Below, in pieces: positions 18,450 through 27,546 of a stretch of DNA of 64,000 bases. The stretch is from NCBI RefSeq assembly GCF_900169365.1, contig NZ_FXZH01000004.1, positions 186,001-250,000 on the forward strand, written 5' to 3'. Every line of letters starts with the position of its first letter. Position 1 is the first letter of the stretch. The notes under the pieces were generated by a model. The model was not told the origin of the DNA and did no database searches. It saw only the letters and a list, made by a program, of their open reading frames with translations. Source of the DNA: Brevibacterium sp. 239c. Its GTDB lineage: Bacteria > Actinomycetota > Actinomycetes > Actinomycetales > Brevibacteriaceae. Both the position numbers and the translations under genes were made by a program.

Positions 18450-18797
18450 ATGGAACCTCTTCGAGTCACGGACAGAAACGGCGATCGGGCCCCGGCACTG
18501 CTGTGGCGGGAGACCCTCGGGCGGGTGCTGCGGCTGCGCCGAACCGACCTGGCCTTGACTCTGGCGCAGGTGTCACGGCGTTCCGGAGTCTCGACCCAGT
18601 ACCTGTCCGAGGTTGAACGTGGTCTCAAAGATCCGTCGTCCGAGGTCATCGAGGCGATCGCAGTGGTCCTCGGCCTCGCACTCCCCCAGGTTCTCGTCCT
18701 CGCTGCGACGTCGCTGACGACAGCTGCGCCCGCGTTCCCGGTGAGCGGGCTTCCGAGTCCGCTCACCGGTAGGGCGCAGCTCTCGCTCGCGGCCTAA
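18450..18797 (+). CDS. XRE-family regulator resembling ClgR/PopR
   Basis: A 115-residue protein with an XRE helix-turn-helix domain at about residues 25-80. The stretch LLWRETLGRVLRLRR, then TLAQVSRRSGVSTQYLSEVE and RGLKDPSSEVIEAIAVVLGL, is the hallmark of ClgR and its paralogue PopR, actinobacterial activators of clp protease genes. PopR in Streptomyces sits next to and controls clpP3-clpP4. Here a clpP pair lies 2.7 kb downstream on the other strand, so control of that pair is a reasonable inference. The gene is probably leaderless. The exact ClgR/PopR assignment needs a tree. Confidence 0.75.
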   Translation: MEPLRVTDRNGDRAPALLWRETLGRVLRLRRTDLALTLAQVSRRSGVSTQYLSEVERGLKDPSSEVIEAIAVVLGLALPQVLVLAATSLTTAAPAFPVSGLPSPLTGRAQLSLAA

Positions 18798-19265: not shown

Positions 19266-19940
19266 CTATCCCCCGTGCAGCCATCCGGGTGAGACTAGCC
19301 CGCACTCGTAGGCGAGGACGACGAGGTGGACCCGATCGCGTGCGGCGACTTTGCTCATGATGCGCGAGACATGGGTCTTCGCCGTCAGCGGGGACAGCAC
19401 CAGTCTGGCTGCGATCTCGTCGTTCGACAGCCCTTGGCCGACGAGGGCGAGCACCTCGCGCTCTCGTTCGGTGAGAACGTCGAGGTTCTTCGTGGGACCG
19501 GACCGCAGGCCCAGGGACATCCTGGACAGCAGATACTTCGTCACCTCGGGCGAGAGCAGCGCCTCACCCTCGGCAACAACGCGCACCGCCCGGATCAGGT
19601 CGACCGGCTCGGTGTCCTTGAGCAGGAATCCGCTGGCACCCGCCCTGACCGCGCGCACGATGTATTCGTCGAGGCCGAAGGTCGTCACGAGCACGACACG
19701 TGCTTGGTCGAGACCGGGATCGGCGGCAATCTGTTCGGTGGCCCACAGCCCGTCACCGTCAGGCATCCGAATGTCCATGAGGACGACGTCGACCGGCGTC
19801 GTTGTCAGCTTCTCCAGCAGCTCTTCCCCGCCGGAGGCCTGCACGAGCACGTTGATGTCCGGTTCCGCATCCAGCAGCGAGGCGAAGCCGGCGCGGACCA
19901 GCTGGTGATCATCGGCGATCGCCACTGAAATATCGGTCAT
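19266..19940 (-). CDS. NarL/LuxR-type response regulator
   Basis: A 224-residue regulator. The receiver domain (1-120) has the acidic pocket IADDHQ, phospho-acceptor Asp56 in VVLMDIRMP, and the conserved Lys in GFLLKDTEP. The C-terminal LuxR helix-turn-helix (about 155-215) has TEREREVLALVGQGLSNDEI and the recognition helix TAKTHVSRIMSK. Start overlaps the stop of the kinase gene by four bases, so kinase and regulator form one unit. Target genes are unknown; the SHOCT protein downstream and the clpP pair upstream on the same strand are the nearest candidates. Confidence 0.92.
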   Translation of the reverse strand: MTDISVAIADDHQLVRAGFASLLDAEPDINVLVQASGGEELLEKLTTTPVDVVLMDIRMPDGDGLWATEQIAADPGLDQARVVLVTTFGLDEYIVRAVRAGASGFLLKDTEPVDLIRAVRVVAEGEALLSPEVTKYLLSRMSLGLRSGPTKNLDVLTEREREVLALVGQGLSNDEIAARLVLSPLTAKTHVSRIMSKVAARDRVHLVVLAYECGLVSPGWLHGG

Positions 19941-21340
19941 GCCTGAGCCTCCGAATTTAGTCTTCCGTGTCCGTCCATCCAGGGCAGGCGAACGCTGATG
20001 TGCGTGCCTTCCCCGCGTGCCGAGGTGATCGTGAAGGTTCCGTGCAGAAGTTTCGTCCGCTCCTGCATCCCGATGAGGCCGGTCCCCGTGCCATCGCCTT
20101 CTTCGAAGGTCGCAGTGTCGGTTCCGTTGCCGTCATCGCCGATCTCGATGCACAGAGATGAGTTCTCGCGCGAGATTCTGACACTCGCGTGGGTGGCGTG
20201 AGCGTGGCAGACCACATTCGTCAGCGCTTCCTGCACGATCCGGTATGCGGCCGCATCGGCGGCATTGCCCGGGTGCTCACGGGTTCCGTCGGCCTGGCGT
20301 TCGCGCTGGTCATCGAGGTGGATGGCGGGATGATCGCCCATTGCCGTGACGAGTGCCGGCAGGTCGTCAAGCCCCGGCACGGGGGCCAGCGGCTCGCCTG
20401 CGTCGGCACTCGCGGTGTCGGTGCCAGTGCCGGCGGCTTCGGTGGCATCGCCGCCGGTGGCATCGGCAGCGTCGGAGCGCATCGTGTGGAGCACGGAGCG
20501 GACCTCGTTGAGCCCGGTTCGGCTGAGTTCCTTGATGGCGGCGAGCGCGCGTCTGGCCTGGTCGGGGTCACGGTCGATGAGGTACTCGCCCACACCTGCC
20601 TGCACATTGATCTGGGACAGGGAATGTCCGAGCACATCGTGGAGATCACGGGCGATGCGCAGCCTCTCGGCGGTGATCACTTCGAGATGCCGGGCTTGCG
20701 CTTCCTCTGCCTCGATCCTCCTGCTTTCGCGTCTGCGCCGGACGAAAGCACCGAGACCCAGGGTGATGAGCAGGCCCATGGTCGCTGAGGCGACGCGTCC
20801 CACCGACCAGTCGATTCCGAAGAAGGGCGCCAGAAGGAGTGCGCCCACCCACACGCCAGCTGCGGCGGCGATGGCCCAGATCTGGCGACCACGAACCATG
20901 GCCGCCACGAGAGCGAAAAGGAATGCCGCGTAGAACGGGGTCATCTCGGGGCCGGTGAGTCCCTGCGCCCACATGCCGCCCGGTCCGGGCTCTGGCCAGG
21001 GACGATTGCTGGGATCATGGGTCCATGCGCCGGGAATGTTGGAGCTGGCCAGTGCGGCCCAGCTGACGATGTCGAGGAGAGTCAGTCCGGCGATGATCGC
21101 CGCTCTCGGCCCGGGCCAGCGAACGCAGAGCAGGAAGATCGCTGGGGAGAGCAGAGCCACCGCGACCCGGACACTTCCGGCAGTCGCATCAGCACCATCG
21201 TGGGCGGCCATGAACACAGCGAAGGGCAGTTGGAGCAGCAGGGCCAGGGCACTCAGGGCTGCCAGGCGCAGACGAGTTCGGCGCAGGACACGTCGACTGG
21301 GACCGTTCGCCTCGGCGGGTACATGCCTGGATCGGCTCAT
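19937..21340 (-). CDS. sensor histidine kinase (HisKA_3 type)
   Basis: A 467-residue kinase with five to six membrane helices in the first 200 residues, then the dimerisation and phosphotransfer domain with phospho-His234 in RIARDLHDVLGHSLSQINVQ, and an ATPase domain with N-box (IVQEALTNVVCHAHATH), G1 (IGDDGNGTD) and G2 (GTGTGLIGMQER). A roughly 45-residue Thr/Asp/Glu/Pro-rich insertion sits between the two catalytic parts. The sensory region is membrane-embedded, which suggests an envelope or lipid-phase signal. A -10-like TACGAT six bases before the ATG suggests a leaderless message. Confidence 0.9.
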   Translation of the reverse strand: MSRSRHVPAEANGPSRRVLRRTRLRLAALSALALLLQLPFAVFMAAHDGADATAGSVRVAVALLSPAIFLLCVRWPGPRAAIIAGLTLLDIVSWAALASSNIPGAWTHDPSNRPWPEPGPGGMWAQGLTGPEMTPFYAAFLFALVAAMVRGRQIWAIAAAAGVWVGALLLAPFFGIDWSVGRVASATMGLLITLGLGAFVRRRRESRRIEAEEAQARHLEVITAERLRIARDLHDVLGHSLSQINVQAGVGEYLIDRDPDQARRALAAIKELSRTGLNEVRSVLHTMRSDAADATGGDATEAAGTGTDTASADAGEPLAPVPGLDDLPALVTAMGDHPAIHLDDQRERQADGTREHPGNAADAAAYRIVQEALTNVVCHAHATHASVRISRENSSLCIEIGDDGNGTDTATFEEGDGTGTGLIGMQERTKLLHGTFTITSARGEGTHISVRLPWMDGHGRLNSEAQA

Positions 21341-21448: not shown

Positions 21449-22030
21449 TCAGAGAATCTGATCGACGAGGCCGAATTCTCGAGCCGCCTTCGCGTTCAGA
21501 ACAAGGTCTCGGTCGAGGTCCGTATGGATCTGCTCCACGCTACGCCCGGTCCCCTGCGCCAACATAGCCTCGACCTCACGGCGCTGCCGGGCGATCTCAT
21601 CAGCAGCGACGATGAGATCCGGGATGGCCCCGCGGGCACCTTCGGTGTGGGGCTGGCGCAGCACCGCCCGAGCATGTTCGAGGATCGAGCGCTGTCCAGG
21701 CTCTCCTGCCGCCAGGAGCACCGCGGCATCGGCCACTGCCTGCCCCACGCAGATGGTCGCCACGGGCGCACCGATGTGGCGCATCGCGTCATAGATGGCG
21801 GTCATGGCCGTCAGGGATCCGCCGGGAGAATTGATATACAGCTGAATCGGCAGTTCCCGGCTGCTGGCCTCTAAATGGAGCAGCTGGGCGATGACCGTGT
21901 TGGCCACACCGTCATCGATCGGCACACCGAGGTAGATGATGCGGTTGCCCAAGAGGTGTGAATAGACGTCGACGATCTTCTCGTTGCCGTCTGAGCGGTC
22001 AACGACGTTCGGGATCGTGTACTGGCTCAT
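21449..22030 (-). CDS. catalytically degenerate ClpP homologue (ClpR-like)
   Basis: A 193-residue ClpP-fold protein that keeps the core (YLGVPIDD, LPIQLYINSPGGSLTAMTAI, EFGLVDQIL) but has lost two of three catalytic residues. The Ser position of GQAASMG reads GQAVADA (Ala100) and the His position of MIHQP reads VLRQP (Arg125); only the Asp (Asp175) remains. It should assemble into a tetradecamer with the active partner encoded just upstream but cannot cleave peptides. The ATG at 22030 overlaps the stop of that partner by four bases. Inactive ClpP subunits of this kind (ClpR) are known from cyanobacteria and plastids; here the presence of one in an actinobacterium is the notable point. Confidence 0.85.
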   Translation of the reverse strand: MSQYTIPNVVDRSDGNEKIVDVYSHLLGNRIIYLGVPIDDGVANTVIAQLLHLEASSRELPIQLYINSPGGSLTAMTAIYDAMRHIGAPVATICVGQAVADAAVLLAAGEPGQRSILEHARAVLRQPHTEGARGAIPDLIVAADEIARQRREVEAMLAQGTGRSVEQIHTDLDRDLVLNAKAAREFGLVDQIL

Positions 22031-22686
22031 GGCGCCCCGATTCCGCCGCGCAGATCGTCCGGTAAGTCGACGATGCGATCGATGAGACCGTAGTCCAACG
22101 CCTGTTCGACGGTGAACCACCGGTCGCGCAGGGAGTCTTCGAAGATGCGGTCATAGGACTTTCCCGTCGCCTCGGCGATGCGATTAAGGACAGAATCACG
22201 AACGTTGCGCAGGTCCCCGGACTGCAGTTCGATATCGGCCGCGGCTCCCCCGATCCCCGACGATCCCTGGTGCAGGAGGATCCTCGCGTGAGGCAGGGCG
22301 AGCCGTTTGCCGGGCGTGCCCATCATGAGCACGAACTGCCCCGCCGAGGCGGCCCACCCGAACGCCACCGTGATCACGTCGTTGGGCACAGTCTCGATCA
22401 CATCGGCGATCGCGTGCATCATCGGCACCGACCCGCCGGGCGAGTTGATCCACAGGTGGATGTCACTGTGCGGGTCCTCGGCGGAGAGGAGGATGAGGCG
22501 GGAGATGATCTCCATCCCGTTCTCATCGCGCAGCTCCCCGTTGAAGACCACCGAACGGTAGGCGTAGAGCATTCTCTGGGATTCGGGGATGGACGTGGTC
22601 GTCGGGGCGTCCTCATCGTCGCTCCACCTCGGCGATGGCTGGGCGGGTCGGCTATGGACATGGCTGGTCGCGATTCGTGTGTTCAT
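22027..22686 (-). CDS. clpP: ClpP-family protease subunit with intact catalytic triad
   Basis: A 219-residue ClpP-like protein with Ser114 in GWAASAG, His139 in ILLHQG and Asp188 in LRDRW, so the triad is complete, plus the conserved WINSPGGSVPMMHAI turn. The N-terminal 35 residues are polar and may be a propeptide. It differs from the main ClpP lineage (for example GSSGIGGAAADIE after the His), as do the secondary ClpP3/ClpP4-type pairs. With the coupled inactive partner it probably forms a mixed barrel fed by a Clp ATPase. A ClgR/PopR-like regulator is 3.9 kb away and a ClpC-type ATPase 2.3 kb away. Confidence 0.88.
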   Translation of the reverse strand: MNTRIATSHVHSRPAQPSPRWSDDEDAPTTTSIPESQRMLYAYRSVVFNGELRDENGMEIISRLILLSAEDPHSDIHLWINSPGGSVPMMHAIADVIETVPNDVITVAFGWAASAGQFVLMMGTPGKRLALPHARILLHQGSSGIGGAAADIELQSGDLRNVRDSVLNRIAEATGKSYDRIFEDSLRDRWFTVEQALDYGLIDRIVDLPDDLRGGIGAP

Positions 22687-22849
22687 GGCACCACTGTGGC
22701 GCTCGTTGTGCCTGACCGGAAGATGTTTCTGCTCCGAGCGGGAATGCGCCGCTGTGAGCGGACGAGGAGCTTATGACCCCGGCGGCGGTGTGCTGCCGTG
22801 ATAAAATCGATTGACGACTTCAGACTATTTGAATGGAAGGCCGACCGGA

Positions 22850-24974: not shown

Positions 24975-27527
24975 TTATGCTGCCACGGGAACCTCGGGGA
25001 TTCCCGCGATCACGCGCAGCTGCCCGTCTTCTACCGTGGCGCTGACGGTTCCACCCTCGGACACTGCCTCATTGACGAGGAGGTCTGCGATGCGGTCGTC
25101 GAGCTCACGCTGGATCACACGGCGCAGCGGACGGGCACCGAACTCGGGTTCGTACCCGGTGTCGGAGAGCCACTCCACAGCAGCCTCGGACACCTTCAGG
25201 CTGATGCCCTGTTTGGCCAGACGCTGCACCGACTGCTCCAGCTGGAGACGGACGATGACGGCCAGCTGCTCACGGTCGAGGCGCGAGAACATCACCGTTT
25301 CATCGATCCGGTTGAGGAACTCGGGACGCATGAACTCCTTGAGCTTGCCCATCACCTTCGCACTCAGGTCCTTCTCGGTGACCTTCGCGTCGGTGGAGCT
25401 GAAGCCCAGCGGGGTACTGCCGGCCATGAACTCGGAGCCCAGGTTGCTCGTCATGATGATGACGGTGTTCCTGAAGTCCACGGTTCGGCCCTGACCATCG
25501 GTCAGACGACCGTCGTCGAGGACCTGGAGCAGCAGGTTGAATGCGTCCGGGTGCGCCTTCTCGACCTCGTCGAGCAAGATCACCGAGTACGGCTTGCGCC
25601 GGACCTGTTCGGTGAGCTGGCCGGCCTCGTCGTAACCGACGTAGCCGGGAGGAGAACCCACCAGACGTGAGACGGTGTGACGCTCGCCGAATTCGCTCAT
25701 GTCGAACCGGATCAGCGCCGACTCGTCGTCGAACAGGGTCGCAGCCAGAGACTTCGCCAGCTCCGTCTTACCTACACCGGTGGGGCCCAAGAAGAGGAAG
25801 CTGCCTATGGGACGGTTCGGGTCCCCCATACCCACCTGCGACCGACGCACGGCCTTCGACACCGCAGTCACGGCATCGTTCTGGCCGATGACGCGACCGT
25901 GGAGGATCTCTTCGAGTCTAGACAACTTGGCTTTCTGCCCCTGAGTCATGCTCGCCGCCGGAATTCCGGTGGCTCGGGACACGACCTGTGCGATCTGGTC
26001 GGCGTCGACGACGCTGGGCTTGGCGTCGGCCCTAGCCTGCACCGCACTTTCGTCCGGGTTCTCTGCCGCATGCAGCTTCTCCCCCAGGCTCATGATCTCG
26101 TCGCGCAGTTCCCCAGCACGCTCATAGTTCTCTTCGCCGATCGCGGTGTTCTTCTCGGTCTCGAGGCGTTCGATCTCTGCACGCAGAGCCTTGGCATCGA
26201 CCTTGGGTCCGCGCTTCAGCGACAGTCGGGCACCCGCCTGATCGATGAGGTCGATTGCCTTGTCCGGCAGGAACCTGTCGTTGATGTAACGATCGGAAAG
26301 TTCCACCGAGGCGCGGATCGCCTCGGGTGTGTAGGTCACGTTGTGGTGCTCGGCGTAGCGGTCCTTGAGCCCGTCGAGGATGGTCACTGCATCCTCGATG
26401 TTGGGCTCTCCGATGCGCACCGGCTGGAACCGACGTTCGAGAGCTGAGTCCTTCTCAATCGTCCGGTATTCCTTGAGCGTGGTCGCACCCAGCAGGTGCA
26501 GATCTCCGCGGGCCAGTCGGGGTTTGAGGATGTTGCCGGCGTCCATCGAGTTGGATTCGCCATTGCCGCCGGCTCCGACGAGGGTGTGAAGCTCATCTAC
26601 GAAGACGATCATCTCGCCGTCCTCGGCGATTTCGTCGAGCGCACCGGTCAGGCGCTCCTCGAAGTCACCGCGGTAACGGGTTCCCGCGAGCATTCCCGGC
26701 AGATCGAGTGCGATGACGCGTTTGCCGGAGAGCTGCGCCGGGATCTCACCGGCGTGGATGGCCTGCGCCAGTCCTTCTGCGATCGCGGTCTTGCCGACAC
26801 CGGCCTCACCGAGGAGTACCGGGTTGTTCTTGGTGCGGCGGGCCAAGATCTCGATCGTCTCCTGGATCTCCTCGGCACGTCCGATCACCGGGTCGAGTTC
26901 ACCGTCTGCTGCCAGCGCCGTGAGGTCCGTGCCGAATCGCTCGAGCATGGTCTCGTCCGGCTGGCCTGCGCCGGGCCCGCCTTGTGGGTCACCGGCTTCG
27001 GCGGCTTCTGCTCCGGCCTGCAGTCGTTCCTGTGTCACGCCCGCCTGGGCGAGGATGCGACCGGCAGGCATCTCGTGGTTGAGCACGAAGGCGAAGAACA
27101 GGTGCTCCGGGTCGACGTAGGTCGAGCCGAACGCCCGCGCCACTTGGTAGGCGTCGAGGAGCGCACGCTGACCGGAACCGGTCAGAGTCAGTGGGCCCTC
27201 GGGCTTTGTGCTCGAGGATGCTGGCAGACGCTCTTCCACGGCATGGGCGACCTGCTCGGGGTCAGCGCCCGCTTGACGGATCGCTGAGACACCGGGTTCG
27301 GTCTCTGCCATGGTGCGCAGAATGTGCAGGGCGTCGACCTCTGCCTGACCGTGCTCTCTGGCATAGTCAGCGGCGTTGTCGATGACCTCGTGGCTGCGTT
27401 TGCTCAGCAGCTTGTTGATGTCGACGCTGCGCCCCTTGCGCGCGCCCTGCTGTCCCTGCAGAAAACGGGCAAGGAACTCGTCGAATGAATCTCCGCCAGA
27501 ACCGGCGGATCCGAAGAACGTAGCCAA
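24975..27527 (-). CDS. clpC: ClpC-type ATP-dependent unfoldase (Clp ATPase)
   Basis: An 850-residue double AAA+ protein. The N-domain has two Clp-N repeats (from about residue 30) after a Gly/Phe-rich leader. AAA-1 has [13 protein letters not shown] and [13 protein letters not shown]; the short middle domain has the UVR-like segment of ClpC, not the long coiled coil of ClpB; AAA-2 has [14 protein letters not shown] and [12 protein letters not shown]. The tripeptide Leu707-Gly708-Phe709 (in STPLGFSS) is the loop by which ClpC/ClpA/ClpX dock onto ClpP. The start is a TTG at 27527 with AGGAGG five bases upstream. A HAIR-like box lies just upstream, so HspR heat-shock control is likely. The leader differs from the housekeeping ClpC1. 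Confidence 0.88.
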
Positions 27528-27546
27528 TCTGACCTCCTGTCGAAAG

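Follow-up and report, generated by a model that had tools for sequence, protein, structure and literature searches.

The window, that is, the whole stretch of 64,000 nucleotides of Brevibacterium sp. 239c DNA that was analysed here, contains two overlapping clpP genes on the reverse strand, a regulatory gene convergent with them, a degenerate palindrome ahead of them and a gene for a large ATPase. The features are:

22027–22686, minus strand: clpP3-type gene (gene 1), 219 amino acids, intact catalytic triad Ser114/His139/Asp188, non-aromatic Thr at docking position 82
21449–22030, minus strand: clpP4-type gene (gene 2), 193 amino acids from an ATG start, with Ala100/Arg125/Asp175 and the predicted docking residues Gln60/Tyr62/His82
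22027–22030, minus strand: ATGA, the overlap of stop and start codon between the clpP3-type and clpP4-type genes
22728–22742, no strand assigned: degenerate PopR-type palindrome TCTGC-N5-GCAGA with 2 of the 10 fixed bases off, 42–56 bases before the clpP3-type start; taken alone, it is not beyond chance
18450–18797, plus strand: popR-like helix-turn-helix regulator gene, 115 amino acids, degron-like C-terminal Leu-Ala-Ala, convergent with the pair
24975–27530, minus strand: Hsp100 ATPase gene, the third large one, encoding a UVR motif and a PLGF loop and scoring under the cut-offs of all NCBIfam models listed; weakly linked to the pair as a possible unfoldase partner

Both ClpP proteins match the family model PF00574 (CLP_protease) over nearly its full length, with 180 and 198 bits. 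The source genome holds four ClpP matches, the pair of the window on contig C67 and a canonical clpP1P2 on contig C48. In a common alignment the catalytic columns of the two window proteins coincide with those of the two housekeeping ClpPs, confirming the residues that had been claimed from the letters alone, namely Ser114, His139 and Asp188 in the first protein and Ala100, Arg125 and Asp175 in the second. Actinobacterial housekeeping ClpP1P2 has two intact triads, and in this genome as well both of its subunits are Ser-His-Asp, whereas the window pair has lost one triad, the second gene being Ala-Arg-Asp. The sequence-only reading had also described the two genes as fused by a four-base overlap; the ATGA overlap is present, but the genes are separate and there is no fusion. 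The AlphaFold2 model of the ClpP4-type protein reached a pLDDT of 90.4 and a pTM of 0.84, and its best Foldseek matches were chains of the Mycobacterium tuberculosis ClpP1P2 with a top TM-score of 0.93. The predicted model of the clpP3-type protein had a pLDDT of 83.4.

Among the 57 genomes of the genus, 32 have a ClpP4-type gene at an E value of 1e-60 or better, and its reading frame is intact in these 32; the nearest named relatives are B. aurantiacum, with 93% for the second protein. The catalytic positions are Ala-Arg-Asp in 31 of the 32 pair-bearing genomes (all 30 loci first read, with two added later), the exception being G010 with Ala-His-Asp. Conservation of the Ala/Arg pair among close relatives, which had been put forward as a check on the second gene, thus holds, and restoration of both Ser and His was found in none of the 32. 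Compared with 28 relatives, dN/dS (NG86) ranged from 0.065 to 0.19 for the clpP4-type gene and from 0.16 to 0.42 for the clpP3-type gene, with medians of 0.18 and 0.27, respectively, over 349 comparisons of moderate dS. The inactive gene is the better conserved member of the pair, and Ala and Arg in the second gene are due neither to chance nor to error or decay, but are held by purifying selection. Occasional loss of the pair is indicated by remnants or fragments of it in G008, G019 and G050, and loss is in progress in these genomes and in G047, which has a popR-like gene without the pair (loci L053–L055, L060 and L307).

In Brevibacterium, the pair represents the clpP3-clpP4-popR system that has been described in Streptomyces; pair and regulator together are of an already known kind. 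This identity follows from the position of the second protein in a ClpP4 clade apart from the housekeeping ClpP2 and from the nearby convergent PopR-like regulator ending in Leu-Ala-Ala. Common to both genera are the two-gene operon, the ClpP4 clade and the convergent downstream regulator with its Leu-Ala-Ala end, and the operator TCTGC-N5-GCAGA has a candidate, degenerate counterpart in the window. In the S. fungicidicus record NZ_CP023408, this gene order, regulator end and operator are all present and Gly replaces the catalytic His of ClpP4, and the annotations of S. fungicidicus and Tsukamurella tyrosinosolvens give the same order of clpP pair and regulator. Brevibacterium differs from Streptomyces in that its ClpP4 lacks both Ser and His (Ala, Arg), whereas the Streptomyces ClpP4 lacks His alone, and in that its operator copies are degenerate. 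Moreover, unlike in Streptomyces, the genes of a sensor kinase and a LuxR-type response regulator (19266–21340, minus strand) separate the pair from the popR-like gene in the window. In G003, G021 and G024 the popR-like regulator directly adjoins the pair.

A close popR-like homologue occurs in all 32 genus genomes with the pair and in 2 of the 25 others (G047, and G008 with its remnant). When all pair loci are considered, a PopR-like gene lies at 145 of 169; it is convergent in 144 cases, 133 of these within 300 bases, and not convergent in one. The 24 misses comprise 16 Brevibacterium loci with short flanks, whose genomes do have the regulator, four contig edges and four loci of genus g81 (family f25), where no PopR-like gene was found within the 2–3.5 kb in view. 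These last four (L268, L269, L274 and L277) have the triad Ala-His-Asp, and three of them carry the exact palindrome. An Ala-Ala end is present in 137 of the 145 PopR-like regulators (128 with Leu-Ala-Ala), compared with 78 of 3315 control open frames of at least 250 codons. In passages of PMC9775585, this end of the regulator is given as the recognition site for degradation by ClpP1/ClpP2.

The same passages (PMC9775585) give the PopR site of S. lividans as TCTGCC-3N-GGCGAATCTGCC-3N-GGCAGA, and a string matching this form stands ahead of clpP3 in S. fungicidicus. We scanned 168 of the 169 upstream stretches, one being too short, and the palindrome TCTGC-N5-GCAGA was exact in 88 of them, against 0.1 of 168 in shuffles preserving base composition only; at least one member of 31 out of 52 genus-level groups has an exact copy. 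None of 30 Brevibacterium palindromes is exact, 11 having one mismatch, 12 two (the window's among them) and 7 three. The coding control, 400 bases of the clpP4-type gene at 169 loci, gave no exact palindrome and 19 with one mismatch, so that the one-mismatch copies in 11 of 30 Brevibacterium promoters are only moderately above background. A ClgR-type operator, CGC-N5-GCG, was rejected as a candidate upstream of the pair, since it occurred in 91 of 169 cases and in 82.9 in composition shuffles.

Loss of the triad in the second subunit extends well beyond Brevibacterium. Within the best 80 of 154 relatives in the scan of named genomes, second genes were found in Nocardioides, Jiangella, Brachybacterium, Phycicoccus, Acidimicrobiales and others, and their broken triads included Gly-Gln-Asp, Ser-Asp-Asp, Glu-His-Asn and Ser-His-Ala. 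When 24 of these proteins served as queries against 394 genomes of the class, and the matches were read through 29 new loci and 81 fetched stretches, ClpP4-type members were detected in at least 107 class-sample genomes, the window's included, of which at least 35 have an intact triad and at least 72 do not. Over all loci, Ser-His-Asp is present in 37 of 170 different ClpP4-type sequences and, among the 169 different pairs in which a partner is visible, in every upstream partner; the remaining ClpP4-type sequence (L078 and L181) is at a contig edge with no partner in view. Outside the ClpP4 clade, Ser-His-Asp is present in 254 of 259 different ClpP sequences, the others being three with Ser-His-Glu and two fragments, one of which is the frameshifted gene of G008 and is ClpP4-type by its residues. 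Four of 501 open-reading-frame matches, shorter than 140 residues, were dropped, and four loci with strong matches outside the ClpP4 clade (L210, L251, L255 and L272) were excluded from the counts. The 16 ClpP4 sequences of genus g39, which we assigned to Streptomyces on the basis of an 88% match with S. fungicidicus, all lack the catalytic His, being Ser-Gly-Asp in 15 cases and Ser-Gly-Glu in one.

In a maximum-likelihood tree of 129 rows, calculated without the triad columns and without ClpR rows in a short search without bootstrap that left 47 of 125 inner branches weak, the ClpP4 clade (115 rows, the Streptomyces ClpP4 included) is separated from 14 housekeeping rows (ClpP2) with an SH-aLRT of 99. 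Members with an intact triad are basal and scattered in this clade, within which Ser is replaced by Ala, Glu, Phe, Gly or Trp, His by Asp, Gly, Gln or Arg, and Asp by Ala, Glu, His, Asn, Pro, Ser or Thr. Unordered parsimony counts eight triad changes, and losses without regain number nine on the resolved tree and seven when branches below 80 are collapsed. On this tree the triad seems to have been lost repeatedly from an ancestor that had it, seven to nine times if no regain is allowed. Restored Ser and His in relatives had been named as an outcome that would make the loss a local accident; intact ClpP4-type triads do occur farther out, in 35 of the at least 107 class-sample genomes, yet the tree places them in a history of repeated loss. 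In the literature searched (titles, beginnings of abstracts and passages), triad loss in actinobacterial ClpP4 is unreported, and the passages of PMC4255298 do not mention it, but the absence of His may be noted in papers on S. lividans ClpP3/ClpP4 of 2000 and 2002, known through citations. The scale on which ClpP4 has repeatedly lost its triad, also in Streptomyces, looks new.

We take positions 60, 62 and 82 in mature numbering to be the equivalents of Y74, Y76 and F96 of the E. coli protein. According to passages of PMC9765437, these E. coli residues are important for ATPase binding and are involved in the binding of acyldepsipeptides (ADEP). In the ClpP4-type sequences, position 62 is Tyr in 169 of 169 and position 82 is aromatic or His throughout (Phe in 83, Tyr in 43 and His in 43, the window's among the last). 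At position 82, 147 of 169 upstream partners have a non-aromatic residue, while among similar housekeeping proteins, selected by identity, 28 of 31 ClpP1-like and 40 of 40 ClpP2-like ones carry Phe or Tyr. Hence the subunit that tends to lose the triad kept its docking residues and the cutting subunit mostly lost one of them. The predicted docking residues appear to be kept by ClpP4 in Brevibacterium in a weaker form, because the pocket of the window's protein, Gln/Tyr/His, is less hydrophobic than the Tyr/Tyr/Phe of E. coli, which makes docking by this protein less sure. This opposite pocket pattern of ClpP3 and ClpP4 is likewise unreported in the literature searched (listings and passages). 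The partner is non-aromatic in 131 of 132 pairs with a broken triad and in 16 of 37 with an intact one, but the pocket changed only once on the tree, leaving one independent pair, so that no valid correlation between pocket loss and triad loss can be drawn from these counts. The change in the partner's pocket preceded nearly all triad losses, with the exception of L266, where the ClpP4-type triad is broken and the partner still aromatic; this order is suggestive.

Our preferred reading, which we hold to be probable, is a PopR-controlled backup Clp protease with a division of labour between cutting by ClpP3 and docking by ClpP4. ClpP3 would form the cutting ring, and ClpP4, itself without catalytic activity, would form a ring to which the ATPase docks and which supports the active ring. 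The two rings would join into an asymmetric barrel with seven working sites; in such a predicted ClpP3-ClpP4 barrel, half of the active sites are likely to work. A change in the size or selectivity of the chamber, also proposed from the letters alone, is not supported by the present results. As long as ClpP1P2 works, it would destroy the PopR-like protein through its Leu-Ala-Ala end, and upon failure or inhibition of ClpP1P2 the regulator would accumulate and switch the pair on. We infer the two stacked rings, the docking through ClpP4 and the working of this circuit for Brevibacterium. The housekeeping ClpP1P2 of Actinobacteria is likewise made of two unequal ClpPs: passages of PMC9765437 report for Streptomyces that the serine of ClpP1 is required and that of ClpP2 dispensable, with ClpP1 cutting and ATPases bound through ClpP2. 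For S. lividans, passages of PMC9765437 and PMC12607617 report that viability needs clpP1P2 or clpP3P4, that the regulator is degraded by ClpP1P2 and the pair induced on ClpP1P2 failure, and that ClpP3P4 is a PopR-controlled, non-isofunctional and ADEP-insensitive backup. In view of this viability and of the His missing in Streptomyces ClpP4s (16 of 16 in g39 and S. fungicidicus, S. lividans not being among them), a pair whose ClpP4 is defective is probably functional in vivo.

Alternatively, ClpP4 might sit in the same rings as ClpP3, as in the mixed rings of cyanobacterial and plastid ClpP-ClpR, and would then dilute the active sites and tune activity or substrate choice rather than form a docking ring. 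The plastid R-ring, combining ClpP1 and ClpR1-4 (passages of PMC7966870), speaks for such mixing, as do the full ClpP fold of both proteins by family match and the TM-score of the ClpP4-type model to the M. tuberculosis chains; we nevertheless consider it unlikely, as the opposite pocket pattern and the complementary roles within ClpP1P2 (passages of PMC9765437) favour two unlike rings. It appears quite improbable that ClpP4 is regulatory or inhibitory and blocks or frees ClpP3 or ClpP1P2 without a productive core, in the manner in which S. hawaiiensis ClpP-ADEP affects ClpP1. That case provides a precedent for a paralogue disrupting ClpP1 complexes (passages of PMC12607617), but the S. lividans viability data, the description of ClpP3P4 as a backup (passages of PMC9765437 and PMC12607617) and the docking residues kept in 169 of 169 sequences argue against it.

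All 169 ClpP4-type sequences retain the Gly-Gly of the SPGG (oxyanion) loop, as would suit an enzyme with a different active site. This pair of residues may be structural, however, and the letters replacing Ser vary widely (Ala, Gly, Glu, Trp and Phe), which fits one new chemistry poorly and leaves this explanation very improbable. We give next to no credence to a second gene that is decaying and functionless: the triad is lost, and remnants or fragments of the pair exist in the three genomes named above, but the selection result, a dN/dS below that of the active partner, refutes decay unless it is an artefact, and the frame is kept in 32 genus genomes and the same pairing over many families.

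With its active partner beside it, the triad-defective second protein resembles the ClpR of cyanobacteria, plastids and apicoplasts (passages of PMC7966870). Ala100 and Arg125 make its catalytic triad defective in the sense used for ClpR; unlike in ClpR, the losses recur in a family still holding intact members. Against NF009204, which we take to be the cyanobacterial ClpR family, the window's ClpP4 scored 149 bits with a cut-off of 263 and is not assigned to ClpR, and ordinary ClpP models score it higher (217 and 212 bits); the NF009204 cut-off was exceeded in 1 of 14 control genomes. The earlier suggestion of a ClpR-like subunit therefore stands as regards a co-encoded active and inactive ClpP conserved in close relatives, which makes a ClpR-like role for ClpP4 a reasonable supposition, but not as regards membership of that family. 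Another imperfect triad in one of two paralogues is that of Listeria ClpP1, with Asn for Asp172, which becomes aligned for activity in the heteromer (passages of PMC9765437); no such alignment is expected of a subunit in which Ala and Arg have replaced Ser and His.

The proposed division of labour between ClpP3 and ClpP4 bears on the question why one Clp barrel comprises two unlike ClpPs. With the cutting site lost repeatedly in one subunit, and the partner and the predicted docking residues kept, it becomes testable through a few residues. If true, arrangements resembling that of ClpR evolved on several occasions outside the lineage of cyanobacteria and plastids, Streptomyces included, where ClpP3P4 bears on survival under ClpP-targeting antibiotics. 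Passages of PMC9775585 report beta-lactones to be lethal to S. coelicolor strains without clpP3 and clpP4. In view of this, of the ADEP insensitivity of ClpP3P4 (passages of PMC9765437 and PMC12607617) and of the missing triads, the idea of a backup that would be proof against inhibitors is reasonable. We tentatively extend it, as a possible though doubtful reading, to an inducible bypass of natural ClpP inhibitors, in which the subunits would have been reshaped into non-targets: the docking ring would lack the triad attacked by beta-lactones and the cutting ring the aromatic pocket that binds acyldepsipeptides. PopR would sense the failure of ClpP1P2, and the convergent triad loss would be the trace of an arms race.

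The Hsp100 ATPase remains a candidate unfoldase partner. It was rejected as an unfoldase dedicated to the pair, since 48 of 57 genus genomes carry it whether or not they have the pair, and since it is missing in G010, which has the pair. The pair is adjoined by a gene for a YidC/Oxa1-type insertase (PF02096; 23230–24156, plus strand). Finally, a clpP pair with a convergent helix-turn-helix gene is also found on plasmid records, namely those of Tsukamurella tyrosinosolvens (NZ_LR134452, L334) and S. fungicidicus (NZ_CP023408, L333), of 386 kb and 927 kb, respectively.
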